Shown here piece after piece: positions 4,065-8,349 of a stretch of 27,210 nucleotides of DNA. The notes under the pieces were generated by a model that ran no database searches, was not told the origin of the DNA, and worked only from the letters and a program-made list of their open reading frames with translations. This DNA comes from a virus. The position numbers were made by a program, and so were the translations under genes. Where the stretch lies: the IMG/VR virus record IMGVR_UViG_3300048929_000435, positions 1 to 27,210 of that record; one strand, given 5' to 3'. Every line of letters begins with the position of its first letter. Position 1 is the stretch's first letter.

Positions 4065-4469
4065 TCAGGCTGCGAGAGCGTACTGTGCGCGGTTGTTCAG
4101 AACGGCGATGAATGCCGAGAGGGCGGTGAGCCCGGTCGACACCGCGGTCAGGGTCGTCGCGGTCTGAGCGTCCGTCGCGATGCCGAAGGCGACGGCCACG
4201 GGCGCCGCGGCGGCCGCGGCGGCATAGATGAGGCCACGGCCGACGGTGCCGAGCCAGACCCATGCTTCCGATGGTCGGAGGTAGGCGAGGGCGAGGGTGG
4301 CCTGGACGAGCTGCAGCGCGGCGCCGGCGAGGACGAGGACGAGCCCGTTCTGCTCCTCCGAGATGTATCCGAGCTGGACGGCGAGGACACCGAGGGTTGC
4401 CAGGAACGCCTGCAGGGCGACGCGACGGTCGTCAGAGAGCCACGTGCTGATCTTCTTGATGATCTTCAT
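4065..4469 (-). CDS. Putative holin, 134 aa
   Basis: Short membrane protein with a basic N-terminus (MKIIKKISTWLSDDRR) and four likely membrane segments: about residues 19-38 (QAFLATLGVLAVQLGYI), 44-66 (LVLVLAGAALQLVQATLAL), 78-96 (IYAAAAAAAPVAVAFGI) and 106-126 (AVSTGLTALSAFIAVLN). The ATG at 4469 has a strong GAGGAGG site 5 nt upstream, and the longer open frame has no such support. It is the last gene of the lysis cassette, after the endolysin and two other membrane proteins. Holins form lesions in the cytoplasmic membrane at a set time. The two neighbouring membrane proteins could share this role, so holin identity is likely but not certain. Confidence 0.75.
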   Translation of the reverse strand: MKIIKKISTWLSDDRRVALQAFLATLGVLAVQLGYISEEQNGLVLVLAGAALQLVQATLALAYLRPSEAWVWLGTVGRGLIYAAAAAAAPVAVAFGIATDAQTATTLTAVSTGLTALSAFIAVLNNRAQYALAA

Positions 4470-4471
4470 GA

Positions 4472-4783
4472 TCACCTCCTCATGGGGGGTCGAGGCCGCG
4501 CCGGGTAGGCGGGCAGCGCGGTTTCGGGTACGCCGTGATTCATCGCGACGATCCGGGTGGCGGAGAGCGCCTCCTGGAGGATGCGGCGCCAGGTGGATTC
4601 GGTGTCGAGCTCGTCTCGGGCCGCGTCTCGCTCCGCGATCAGTCGGTCGTGTTCGGCGCGGGCGCGGCGTGCGCCGCCGGTTAGCGCTCCCCAGACACGC
4701 CTCGCTGCTTTCGGCCCGAGGTGGCCCAGGCCGAGCAGCGTTGCGATCGAGATGATGGTCGCTGGCGCGGTCCATTCGTTCAT
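4472..4783 (-). CDS. Membrane-anchored coiled-coil protein, 103 aa (lysis cassette)
   Basis: One N-terminal membrane segment (about residues 7-24, PATIISIATLLGLGHLG) is followed by a basic stretch and a charged helix (about 40-75, ARAEHDRLIAERDAARDELD) that should form a coiled coil. The C-terminus is proline-rich and basic. The ATG at 4783 overlaps the previous stop as ATGA, indicating coupled translation. Similar one-membrane-pass proteins stand next to endolysin genes in many actinophages, where they may be spanin-like or regulate the holin. No specific activity is shown by the sequence. Confidence 0.75.
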   Translation of the reverse strand: MNEWTAPATIISIATLLGLGHLGPKAARRVWGALTGGARRARAEHDRLIAERDAARDELDTESTWRRILQEALSATRIVAMNHGVPETALPAYPARPRPPMRR

Positions 4784-5199
4784 GTAATCCGTGCCCCCCG
4801 TGGTGCCCATTCCTTGTCCCAGTTCGACACCGCACGGATCATCAGCATCACGAAACCGATGGTGAAGCCCGCGAGTTGCAGCGCCCGGGAGCCCGTCGAC
4901 GTGGCGTGCATGAAGATCAGCGCGATCATGTAGCCGCCGAGGCCGATGGCGATGAAGCCGAGGCCTACGCGCTCGAGCGAATAGTCGCCGGGGAGCGTGG
5001 CCGCGGCCGCGAGCACTGCGCCGATCAGGATCATCGCGCCGATGCCCGTTGTGACGACCGGGCCGATCTCGCCGAGCAGGGTGAGCGGCGGCTCGGTAAG
5101 TGCCCACAACGCCATGGCGGCGATCGCTACGTATCCGACGAAGCAGGCCACGGTGACGTGCTTGGGCTCGCGGATGCGAGCCCAGAACCGCCCGAGCAC
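4780..5199 (-). CDS. Four-pass membrane protein in the lysis cassette, 139 aa
   Basis: Four hydrophobic segments are seen: about residues 16-35 (VACFVGYVAIAAMALWALT), 45-69 (GPVVTTGIGAMILIGAVLAA), 78-97 (GLGFIAIGLGGYMIALIFM) and 105-122 (ALQLAGFTIGFVMLMIRAV). The GTG start at 5199 is 1 nt after the endolysin stop, with GGGGAAG upstream. It ends in an ATGA overlap with the next gene. Its place directly after the endolysin suggests a holin or holin partner, and its size and four passes fit that idea as well as the 134-aa protein does. Confidence 0.78.
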   Translation of the reverse strand: MLGRFWARIREPKHVTVACFVGYVAIAAMALWALTEPPLTLLGEIGPVVTTGIGAMILIGAVLAAAATLPGDYSLERVGLGFIAIGLGGYMIALIFMHATSTGSRALQLAGFTIGFVMLMIRAVSNWDKEWAPRGARIT

Positions 5200-5200
5200 G

Positions 5201-5521
5201 CTACTTCCCCAGCGCCTTGCGCAGGGATGCGAGCTCGGCGAGGATCTCCCGACGCCGGCTCCAGGTGCCGTTCGCCTCGAACTTGCCGGATTGTGGGTTC
5301 TTCACGCGGCCCTGGTTGTCGAGCACGTCGGCGGGGATGCCCATGCCGTTGAGCAGGTCGCTGAACTTCGTCAGCGCGGCGGCGCCGGTTCCGAGGTTGT
5401 GGAGCTCGTCGGTGGCGCTGGTCACCTGGCGGGTGATCTTCGCCTGGCCGGTGGTGCCGTAGTGGGTGATGAACTCGGTGTCGATGCCGTATTCGTTGCC
5501 GTTGATCCTGATGCTCTGCAT
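5201..5521 (-). CDS. Possible internal-start product: endolysin C-terminal domain alone, 106 aa
   Basis: The in-frame ATG (5521-5519) follows AAGGAGG (5536-5530) with an 8-nt spacer, a better ribosome site than the gene's own start. The product would begin MQSIRINGNEYGID and end with the endolysin, containing only the putative wall-binding region. Known endolysins such as Lys170 make such a fragment, which assembles with the full-length chain. The site falls exactly at the linker between domains (after APNVSKEDGT), as expected for a functional internal start. Not proven. Confidence 0.5.
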   Translation of the reverse strand: MQSIRINGNEYGIDTEFITHYGTTGQAKITRQVTSATDELHNLGTGAAALTKFSDLLNGMGIPADVLDNQGRVKNPQSGKFEANGTWSRRREILAELASLRKALGK

Positions 5522-6013
5522 GGTGCCGTCCTCCTTGGAGACGTTCGGGGCGACCGCGCCGCCGGCCGGGGCGGGGTCGTGGCGGTGGTTGTCGCGGGAT
5601 GCGTCGTACTCGAGGTGCCAGCGTTCGACGAGCGTCCACTTCCCGTTGATCCAGCGGTAGACGGTCCAGAACCATCCGTGGTCGTTCCAGATGCGCATGT
5701 GCGCGTCGGAGGTGTCGTCAGTGTCGACGGCGTAGCCGCGGCAGTGGATCGAGTCCTTCGCCGCGTATCCGATCGGCGCCCATGGCACCTTCGGCCCTCG
5801 GCCCGCCTGGTAGGCGAGCCAGGCCTGGTACGCGCGGAAGTTCTTGTCCGCCTGCTCCGGGGACCGCCAGGCCTCGTTGATGTCCGCAGCGCGGCCGAAC
5901 GCGGACCGGAAGTCCACGTCGACACGGGCGAGGGACGCGGCGGCGGGGGCGGCGAGGCGTCCGCGGCCGCCGCCGATGTCGATCGCGTCTTCGTATGCGA
6001 GGATCCCGCTCAT
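5201..6013 (-). CDS. Endolysin, M15 D,D-/L,D-type peptidase, 270 aa
   Basis: The N-terminal domain (about residues 25-140) has the M15 peptidase signature: DSIHCRGYAVD supplies H90 and D97, and ERWHLEY supplies E130 and H133, giving the SxHxxGxAxD and ExWH motifs of the zinc site. It should cleave peptide bonds in host peptidoglycan at lysis. Residues about 165-270 form a second region, probably for cell-wall binding. Start ATG 6013 is preceded by GAGAGAGG at a slightly long distance, and the upstream part of the frame is spurious. A perfect AAGGAGG site inside the gene precedes an in-frame ATG (M165 at 5521), so the C-terminal part may also be made separately. It lies at the head of the lysis cassette. 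Confidence 0.92.
   Translation of the reverse strand: MSGILAYEDAIDIGGGRGRLAAPAAASLARVDVDFRSAFGRAADINEAWRSPEQADKNFRAYQAWLAYQAGRGPKVPWAPIGYAAKDSIHCRGYAVDTDDTSDAHMRIWNDHGWFWTVYRWINGKWTLVERWHLEYDASRDNHRHDPAPAGGAVAPNVSKEDGTMQSIRINGNEYGIDTEFITHYGTTGQAKITRQVTSATDELHNLGTGAAALTKFSDLLNGMGIPADVLDNQGRVKNPQSGKFEANGTWSRRREILAELASLRKALGK
5519..5536 (-). promoter_or_regulatory. Internal Shine-Dalgarno and start codon in the endolysin gene
   Basis: Perfect AAGGAGG (5536-5530), 8-nt spacer, ATG (5521-5519), in frame with the endolysin and at the domain boundary. Confidence 0.55.
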
Positions 6014-6084: not shown

Positions 6085-8349
6085 TCAGGCCCAGGACACC
6101 GCGGGAATCGCCGAGACGCCGGACACCTGGAGGATGTCGGCGCCGCGGCCGAGCGCGGTCGCTGCCTGTTCGGGGGTGGCGATGATGTGGCCGATGACCT
6201 TCTTGCCGTAGCTCTTCGCTGCGGTCCACGCGGCCGGCGAGGCGTTCCACTCCATGCCGAGGATCGACCAGTGAGACTGCGCGGCCGCGAGGTCGCCGCT
6301 GGCGACGTTCGCCTCGTAGAAGTACCCCCATGTTCGGTACCCGCGAGCCGTCGCAGCGTCGGCGAGCGCGATGGATCCGGATCCGACGCCGAAGTACTTC
6401 ACGATGATCCGGTTGGGGCCGCCGTGCGCGTCGAGGATGTTCAGGAACTCGGTGGTGCTCCCGAGCTGGTTCTTCGGGTCCACCATGAGGATGTTGTCCG
6501 TCGAGTACCGGTTCAGGAAGTCGATGAGTCCGAGGTACGGCCGCGGCGTCGCCGACGAGTTGAGCACGTTCATGAACGAGCTCCCGATCTCCGTCTGCGT
6601 GTAGAAGGAGGGCGGGAGGGACCCCGATACGCCGCTGGTGCGATCGAAGTTGTTGTCGTGCATGCCGAACCACCAGCCGTCTTTCGACCGCTGGGCAGAG
6701 AACTCGAGCAACCGGTAGCCGGCGGCGCGGGACTGGTCGAACGCGAATTGCGACATCTCCGGCCAGTCGATCGAACCGCCACGGTGCGCCATGGTGAGCC
6801 CGTGGATGCCGAGGACCTCGTCGACGTCGGGGTAGGTGCCGACATGACCTCGCAGGGAGGCCGGGACGAGGGGGACCCCTCCGCGGACGATCCAGGCGGT
6901 CGCGGTGCGGCCGTCTCCGAGGGTGATCGGGTAGCCCGGAGCGGGGGGCGGAGCGATCTTGCCGGCGAGGGCGAGCGCGCTGTTGCCGTTACCGGAGTTG
7001 ACGCCCCAGCCGAGCACGATGTCGCCGGACATGCCGGCGCTTTCGATCGGGCGGGTGCCGATCCAGAGGCTGGTCCGCGTGCCGACAAGCGAGGCCGGAT
7101 CTGCGAGCTGGTTCTGGACCACCTGGGTCGTGAAGCCTGGCGGGATTACCGCCGGCGTCGACGGGTGGCCGGCTGTCTCCTCGTTCGCGAACATCGCGAT
7201 CAGGAGCGCCGGGGCGTCGAGGATCGGGAACTCGCGGATCGTCATCGTGGTGCCGGACGTCGTCCACAGGGACGATTCGCCGACGACCAGGTTGTCGAGG
7301 TCCGCGTCACGGATGATCATCATCGCGGCCACCGTGCGGGTGTCGGAGATCGTCTTCGTGAAGGTGTAGAACGCGGGTTCTTCCGAGGCCTTCGTCACTG
7401 GGTGCAGCTGCAGCCCGGAGACGCGCTGCTCGGCGCTGTACTCAACGAAGGGCGTGCCGTAGCGGTCGAACGCGTCGTTCGTGTAGTCCGTCGGGCTGTT
7501 GGTGCCGTTGGTCCGGTACCCGAACGCGAGGACATCGCCGGCGCGCACGCCGGCGGGAACACTGATGGCGAAAGAGGACGCGCCGCCGGCGATCGTCACG
7601 TACGTCGGCGTTCCGACGACGCGCGGTGTGAGGTAGGTGTCGTCGCCGCCTCCGCCGTCTCCGATGCCGCGAAGGGTGATCCCCATGGCGGCGGGAGCGG
7701 AGGGCGTGGTCCACGCGATCGAGACGTTGTCGGCGATTGGACCGGTGGAGATCTTTCGTCCCAGGTAGCCATACGTGCGTCCGGCGGCCAGGTCGCCGGA
7801 CACCGGCCGAGTTGTCTGCGCGATCGCCGTGAAGCCGTCAGGAAAGGCGATCGGGACGTGGGTGTTGCCTGCGCCGAACTCGCTGCCGGCGAAGAAGAGG
7901 TCCAACGCCTGGTCGGCGGAGTTGAATCCTGCCCGGGAGAGGACTCCGGCAGCGAGCACACCGAGGGCGCTGGTGACACCGACGATCGGGTCGCTGAGGT
8001 CGACGCCAGTGATGCGGACGGCGATGACCACGCAGCGGGCACCAGAGTGCACGCCTGGCTGCGTGAGGTTGACCGTCGCGCCTGGGATGTCGCCGCTCGA
8101 AGTGATCTTCTTGACGAAGATCGCCTGGTAGCGATTGGTGGGGGAGCCGAGGGCGCCAGAGGCGTGGCGGTCGAAGCCAGCAAGGCTCGCTTCGGCGTTG
8201 TAGGACGAGTCCTGGCAGCGGAAGAACACGGCCACGAAGTCGCCGACTGCCGTGCCGGCAGGCATGGTCACCGCGTCCACTGAGCCCGCTGCAAGCGGCG
8301 TAAACGTGGTGACCGCCGACGTGGCGACGACAGGGGCGATGATGGCCAT
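6085..8349 (-). CDS. Tail fibre/tip protein with C-terminal GDPD-like domain, 754 aa
   Basis: The start ATG (8349-8347) lies 2 nt after the previous stop and gives MAIIAPVVATSAVTTF. Residues about 1-450 hold two similar beta-rich units, with matching strands such as VTMPAGTAVGDFVAVFF near the start and ISVPAGVRAGDVLAFGY in the second. From about 518 a glycerophosphodiester phosphodiesterase fold begins: AHRGG (H522, R523), WPE (E531), LLEFS (E549), FGMHDNNFDRTSG (H564, D565), MVDPK (D624, K626) and a TIM-barrel-like end. GDPD enzymes cleave glycerophosphodiesters. On a phage tail the likely target is teichoic acid or a related wall polymer. The usual E-x-D metal pair reads E-F-S here, so activity is uncertain. 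It is the last tail gene before lysis. Confidence 0.88.
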   Translation of the reverse strand: MAIIAPVVATSAVTTFTPLAAGSVDAVTMPAGTAVGDFVAVFFRCQDSSYNAEASLAGFDRHASGALGSPTNRYQAIFVKKITSSGDIPGATVNLTQPGVHSGARCVVIAVRITGVDLSDPIVGVTSALGVLAAGVLSRAGFNSADQALDLFFAGSEFGAGNTHVPIAFPDGFTAIAQTTRPVSGDLAAGRTYGYLGRKISTGPIADNVSIAWTTPSAPAAMGITLRGIGDGGGGDDTYLTPRVVGTPTYVTIAGGASSFAISVPAGVRAGDVLAFGYRTNGTNSPTDYTNDAFDRYGTPFVEYSAEQRVSGLQLHPVTKASEEPAFYTFTKTISDTRTVAAMMIIRDADLDNLVVGESSLWTTSGTTMTIREFPILDAPALLIAMFANEETAGHPSTPAVIPPGFTTQVVQNQLADPASLVGTRTSLWIGTRPIESAGMSGDIVLGWGVNSGNGNSALALAGKIAPPPAPGYPITLGDGRTATAWIVRGGVPLVPASLRGHVGTYPDVDEVLGIHGLTMAHRGGSIDWPEMSQFAFDQSRAAGYRLLEFSAQRSKDGWWFGMHDNNFDRTSGVSGSLPPSFYTQTEIGSSFMNVLNSSATPRPYLGLIDFLNRYSTDNILMVDPKNQLGSTTEFLNILDAHGGPNRIIVKYFGVGSGSIALADAATARGYRTWGYFYEANVASGDLAAAQSHWSILGMEWNASPAAWTAAKSYGKKVIGHIIATPEQAATALGRGADILQVSGVSAIPAVSWA

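Follow-up and report, generated by a model that had tools for sequence, protein, structure and literature searches.

Lysis cassette and organization of the endolysin gene

The analyzed window (the whole 27,210-nt stretch of the IMG/VR virus record IMGVR_UViG_3300048929_000435) carries on its minus strand a siphovirus-like set of genes (portal, protease, major head protein, tape measure and minor tail). The tail genes are followed by a lysis cassette, comprised of the endolysin gene (6013-5201) and, beyond it (4065-5199), a membrane protein gene (4780-5199), a small ORF (4472-4783) and a gene for a holin-like protein (4065-4469), all on the minus strand. The gene preceding the endolysin gene (6085-8349, minus strand) matches a phosphodiesterase family (phrog_17803, 2e-81) as well as a tail-fibre family, and may possibly encode a virion-borne enzyme.

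The endolysin gene encodes a protein of 270 aa and 29.7 kDa, in which an M15-like catalytic domain is joined by a linker to a C-terminal domain; the catalytic module and linker occupy positions 6013-5540 of the minus strand. Searches with Pfam and M15/VanY models yielded no match to either the catalytic half or the C-terminus. The catalytic half resembles the "L-Ala-D-Glu peptidase domain" of Hendrix and belongs to a Hendrix-like sort of enzymes. VanY was matched by 5 of the 12 rows of an alignment of catalytic relatives (A6), whose profile matches D-Ala-D-Ala carboxypeptidase structures (5hnm at 5.8e-5). The zinc ligands of M15 peptidases follow the pattern His-x6-Asp ... His, and His90, Asp97 and His133, invariant in a second alignment (A7, 10 sequences), fit this pattern. 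Since the AF2 model of the full-length endolysin was poor (pLDDT 49.8) and unusable, the catalytic fold is assigned from the sequence.

At positions 5536-5519 the minus strand reads AAGGAGG-ACGGCACC-ATG, i.e. a Shine-Dalgarno (SD) sequence (5536-5530), an 8-nt spacer (5529-5522) and an in-frame ATG (5521-5519), which is codon 165 of the 270. This site lies more than 20 codons from both ends of the gene, and its predicted duplex energy (-11.2 kcal/mol) is better than that of the endolysin's own start (-8.8 kcal/mol). The 106 codons from the internal ATG to the stop shared with the full-length endolysin (5521-5201, minus strand) would specify a second product of 11.5 kDa with a pI of 9.2 and Met-Gln-Ser at its N-terminus. 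Among the ORFs of the minus strand, the strand of the recognised genes of the window, which were scanned for paired SD sequences and starts, the endolysin gene alone has two strong pairs: that of its own start and another far within the ORF. Two copies of the pattern AAGGAGG-N4-12-ATG are present in the window, compared with 0.15 expected from shuffles; the other copy (11837-11817, minus strand) lies in the reading frame of the tape-measure gene, roughly 12 codons short of its end. The possibility that the short ORF is the sole true gene, with a misannotated start, was rejected, given that the catalytic half upstream shows conservation of both its frame and its M15-type residues.

The C-terminal 106 residues are predicted to fold on their own (AF2, 11 sequences; pLDDT 91.5, pTM 0.81). 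The predicted domain begins at the internal Met, with its first strand starting at residue 2. When a 1001-base DNA query was used, 81 records were matched by blastn, and in 18 of the 20 Microbacterium phage matches listed the match began at query base 559-565; base 563 corresponds to window position 5538, two bases ahead of the SD. By these match starts, the conserved DNA starts at the predicted ribosome-binding site, and neither in the linker nor in the catalytic domain. The first-pass annotation of this DNA had proposed an SD, 8-nt spacer and in-frame ATG placed at the domain boundary. Its positions (5201-5521) proved exact, and both the predicted fold and the DNA similarity (from 5538) place the internal start between the domains rather than within one.

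Conservation of the junction start and exchange of its partners

The C-terminal 106 aa gave matches in 97 of 50,697 phage records (tblastn, E <= 1e-3), all of them from Microbacterium phages, and the underlying gene was annotated as endolysin or lysin A in all 60 of the matches listed. A search for relatives in bacterial genomes with the C-terminal profile confirmed none. A search with the catalytic profile revealed six Microbacterium loci, of which five were used and one, L066, was dropped; in this locus, from Microbacterium sp. C5A9, the copy of the enzyme gene (2480-2896) is broken.

Counts were made on 49 loci (the window, L002, L004-L015, L018-L035, L037-L039, L047-L050 and L056-L065), picked by protein similarity of either half and not by the presence of an SD; for loci not belonging to the C-terminal family, the SD itself or inspection by eye served in part to locate the boundary start. 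Repeat fetches (L003, L016, L017, L040-L046, L051, L052, L054 and L055) were excluded, together with L036 (no boundary start), L053 (phage Min1; split) and the broken L066. The first-pass annotation had proposed comparing the SD among relatives: an AGGAG core is kept 4-10 nt upstream of the boundary start in 42 of these 49 relatives, whose C-terminal domains are small, while none of the 443 remaining in-frame start codons inside these genes has one; the 49 loci are related, and the counts are descriptive rather than a tally of independent events. A duplex energy of -8.2 or better was likewise found at 42 of the 49 boundary starts, and the site is weak or missing in L021, L056, L058, L061, L062 and L063. 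At a threshold of -8.6, strong internal sites are present in 31 of 32 endolysin genes vs 11 of 109 neighbouring genes (14 of 546 starts). By duplex energy the boundary start outranks all other internal starts in 41 of 44 endolysins, and in these 44 its codon is ATG (41) or GTG (3). A chance match was thus rejected on the basis of the shuffles, the control genes and the 42/49 vs 0/443 comparison. By these sequence comparisons, the site in the endolysin gene is real and conserved.

In two of the relatives (L010 and L012), the lysis-cassette genes that start at 1935/1932 and 2309/2306 contain SD-like internal starts at codons 21-22, which could represent either a dual start or a wrong start annotation.

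The distance from the SD to the start is 5-9 nt throughout, despite varied linkers. This bears on the idea that the internal SD serves to pause translation and so aids co-translational folding at the domain junction, with which the site indeed coincides. A pause needs no start codon, yet a start stands at 5-9 nt in 44 endolysins with linkers of various lengths, and we consider this explanation extremely unlikely.

The C-terminal domain is found behind at least two sorts of M15-type enzymes, Appa-like (whose VanY matches are close to the cut-off) and Hendrix-like, and also behind an M23 peptidase (L002; PF01551, 1e-10); by the look of its sequence, L038 is a second M23 enzyme carrying this domain. 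The M23 fusions keep the SD and start with different linker peptides (QEAGN and EESP). Conversely, Hendrix-like enzymes occur with other C-termini (L050 and L061-L065). A third enzyme family, related to Min1 orf59 and annotated as lysin A or endolysin, is combined with unrelated C-termini (L056-L060); Pfam gave no match to it, and we read it as CHAP-like. The SD is kept in three of its five loci (L057, L059 and L060), and in L060 it is spelled by the glycine codons GGA GGA GGA GGG of a Gly4-Asp2 linker. In L050 and L064 the SD accompanies the linkers KRSRH and VRRDI, where it is spelled by arginine and serine or aspartate codons in a codon phase unlike that of the Lys-Glu linkers. As judged from these sequences, the junction SD and start are present in most combinations of enzyme and C-terminus.

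Among the 29 annotated stretches with a fused endolysin that were inspected, the boundary start is present in 28, and in none is the second product annotated as a CDS. The exception is Zooman (L036; 1432-3273), in which the same M15-type enzyme is followed by a long tail that looks repetitive. No internal SD was found in this gene (best energy -3.5); although a single case, Zooman is a natural negative control for the internal start.

In phage Min1 (L053, EF579802), as deposited, the two parts are separate, differently framed ORFs (orf59 and orf60, 35913-36694). A structure search of BFVD with the predicted C-terminal domain matched the Min1 protein A6N218 (111 aa, E 7e-5). Its length, position and similarity, rather than an accession match, indicate that this is the product of orf60 (36359-36694, 111 codons), a lysis-region gene similar to the C-terminal domain of L039 (blastp 3e-7). 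The start signal of orf60 is GAGGAGG-acgac-ATG, and the stop of orf59, which encodes the enzyme, lies 17 nt upstream in a different frame. Since the codons preceding orf60, read in its frame, still resemble the usual linker, a recent frameshift or an error in the older sequencing is possible, besides a true split of the gene.

The separate genes of Min1 would also suit the view that the internal site is a relic of gene fusion, i.e. a ribosome site retained from a once-separate C-terminal gene and no longer of any consequence. We regard this as very unlikely, as the site survives large divergence and module swaps, and the split in Min1 could itself have arisen recently by frameshift, or reflect an error in the old sequence.

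Selection on the linker: RNA or protein

A more serious alternative holds that a conserved acidic linker (K-E-D-D/G), selected at the protein level, produces the SD incidentally, as a by-product, in the absence of internal initiation. Most linkers are of the type (K/E/Q)-E-(D/S/N), and such a peptide written in GC-rich codons will contain AGGAG in any case; an SD is forced in this way by the peptide (K/E/Q-E or similar, NAG GAG codons) in 39 of the 49 loci. The support from synonymous codons is therefore modest, because the usual K-E-D linker spells an SD near-automatically. Synonymous resampling of the window's own site was null (P 0.76), and resampling with the core anti-SD gave P 0.3-0.8 for most of 32 loci. 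Moreover, L056 (2427) and L058 (2406) run against the trend, as they retain a poly-Glu linker, written mostly in GAA codons, despite a weak SD.

Part of the codon data points towards the RNA. The linker Glu codon is GAG in 33 of 33 loci (a separate set of 39 from which five near-duplicates and L050 had been dropped), compared with 69 of 80 codons for Glu residues in three conserved columns of the domain (Fisher 0.018, uncorrected for relatedness). For the ten loci lacking an SD-forcing peptide, the P values were 0.79, 0.010, 0.98, 0.97, 0.094, 0.009, 0.033, 0.46, 0.71 and 0.013 (combined Fisher 0.003, Stouffer 0.06), and the five low values support RNA-level selection in part of this set; L056 and L058, which belong to the ten, have codons that weaken the SD and speak against it. 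A four-locus combination (Fisher 0.0026) omitted L056 and L058 and was set aside in favour of the full ten-locus set. As a proof of selection, synonymous codons were uninformative with K/E/Q-E linkers and gave mixed results with other linkers.

The rare Ser codon AGT is used in all ten KES linkers (L004-L009, L013, L015, L022 and L032), as opposed to 25 of 659 elsewhere. It lifts the pairing with a longer 16S tail from -8.7 to -13.1, by an extension via one bulged A (AAGGAG-A-GTGA); P is about 0.02-0.04 for each of the ten loci, which are related. The first-pass annotation had named synonymous loss of the SD in close relatives as an observation that would speak against an internal start. None of the close relatives has lost it in this way (linker GAG in 33/33); the weak SDs with GAA-rich poly-Glu linkers do occur, in the distant L056 and L058, which belong to another catalytic family. 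Taken as a whole, the codon data provide good, not conclusive, support for selection on RNA.

The by-product explanation must also accommodate the SDs that persist with Gly4-Asp2 (L060), Lys-Arg-Ser-Arg (L050), Val-Arg-Arg-Asp (L064) and Gln-Glu-Ala-Gly (L002), the ATG or GTG at the proper distance, the use of the same site by the stand-alone gene of Min1, and the rare AGT that strengthens anti-SD pairing in all ten KES linkers. We consider it unlikely.

A predicted two-polypeptide endolysin

Based on the sequence anatomy, its conservation, the module boundary and the confidently predicted fold, we infer that both products are made, and consider it very likely that one gene gives rise to two polypeptides via an internal translation start. 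Initiation at 6013 would yield the 270-aa endolysin, comprised of the M15-type peptidase and the C-terminal domain, whereas ribosomes binding at AAGGAGG (5536-5530) and starting at the ATG at 5521 would produce the free 106-aa C-terminal domain. The mRNA around the boundary start is weakly structured (mean -8.8 vs -15.2 elsewhere), with all 39 of the values exceeding the control median. In addition, pairing at the internal site is stronger than at the gene's own start in 27 of 44 endolysins, and in the gene of the window the internal site also lies in the less structured mRNA of the two. It is therefore plausible that the free domain is made in excess. By analogy with CTP1L, Lys170 and LysP7951, the free domain and the full-length chain probably assemble, which would result in an endolysin with several binding domains.

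No clear match to the predicted domain was found in the PDB; the best Foldseek hit had an E value of 1.4, and the best VIA-align hit (EccB1, Z 3.4) was too weak to be meaningful. The novelty of the modelled fold does not follow from this result. BFVD contains similar structures in an unnamed 377-aa protein (E 1e-11) and in the M15 endolysin of PineapplePizza (E 1e-4). That the domain binds the Microbacterium wall is suggested by its position, by the published precedents and by the fact that, at E <= 1e-3, all phage records matching it are from Microbacterium phages. As for the extra wall-binding subunit proposed in the first-pass annotation, the internal start is supported by most relatives, by the swapped enzymes and by the separate gene in Min1, whereas wall binding by a C-terminus that matches no domain family is deduced from the context described above.

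Such an arrangement had also been described there as known for a few endolysins, which is outdated: Pinto 2022 (PMC9430671) predicted internal starts in 312 of 635 non-redundant endolysins, both groups together, i.e. about half of the endolysins of phages of Gram-positive bacteria. The endolysin of the window resembles Lys170 and LysP7951 of the second group of that study in having a single catalytic and a C-terminal domain with an in-frame start between them. It shares with CTP1L, CD27L and CS74L of clostridial phages (PMC4777826) one catalytic and one C-terminal domain and a junction ribosome site giving a free C-terminal domain. For those three proteins the short product with its Met, as well as the complex, has been demonstrated, while the short product described here is predicted from sequence; the present endolysin also differs in the M15-type enzyme, the presumably actinobacterial host and a C-terminal domain that lacks a family match. 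LysA of phage Ms6 (Lysin384/Lysin241; PMC3111421) is, like the present gene, an endolysin of an actinobacterial phage with an embedded in-frame gene and a consensus ribosome site. Its short product is a peptidoglycan hydrolase, in contrast to the one predicted here, which has no catalytic domain; Ms6 phages making a single form are viable, but their lysis is abnormal. The short isoform of Ply2638A (PMC12203907) is produced during infection, heterodimerizes with the full-length form and leads to quicker phage release; it contains amidase and SH3b, compared with the C-terminal domain alone in our case.

Our literature search found no published account of two-polypeptide endolysins of Microbacterium phages. 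The words Microbacterium and M15 are absent from the main text of Pinto 2022 (PMC9430671), whose supplementary tables may list such genes, and the accessible text of PMC7302621 does not mention an internal start in Microbacterium phage endolysins. Our predictions would add to a published kind of endolysin a host genus and types of enzyme for which we found no treatment in print. If they are correct, scores of deposited Microbacterium phage genomes contain an unannotated second lysis protein, and a purified endolysin of this kind may turn out to be a mixture or a complex. These phages also offer a natural comparative set for the purpose of the internal start, with three enzyme families, several types of C-terminus, one split case and a few losses.

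Taken jointly, the data allow a broader reading, which we put forward tentatively, as possible rather than probable: the C-terminal domain may be a mobile, ribosome-site-tagged subunit gene of Microbacterium phages. Small domains lacking a clear structural match would move together with their own start signal, dock behind M15 or M23 enzymes or, in Min1 as deposited, stand apart behind a CHAP-like one, and supply the free subunit in excess; a tail that already looks repetitive, such as that of Zooman, would dispense with the internal start. If this reading is true, internal initiation would be a general rule of endolysin design in Microbacterium phages.
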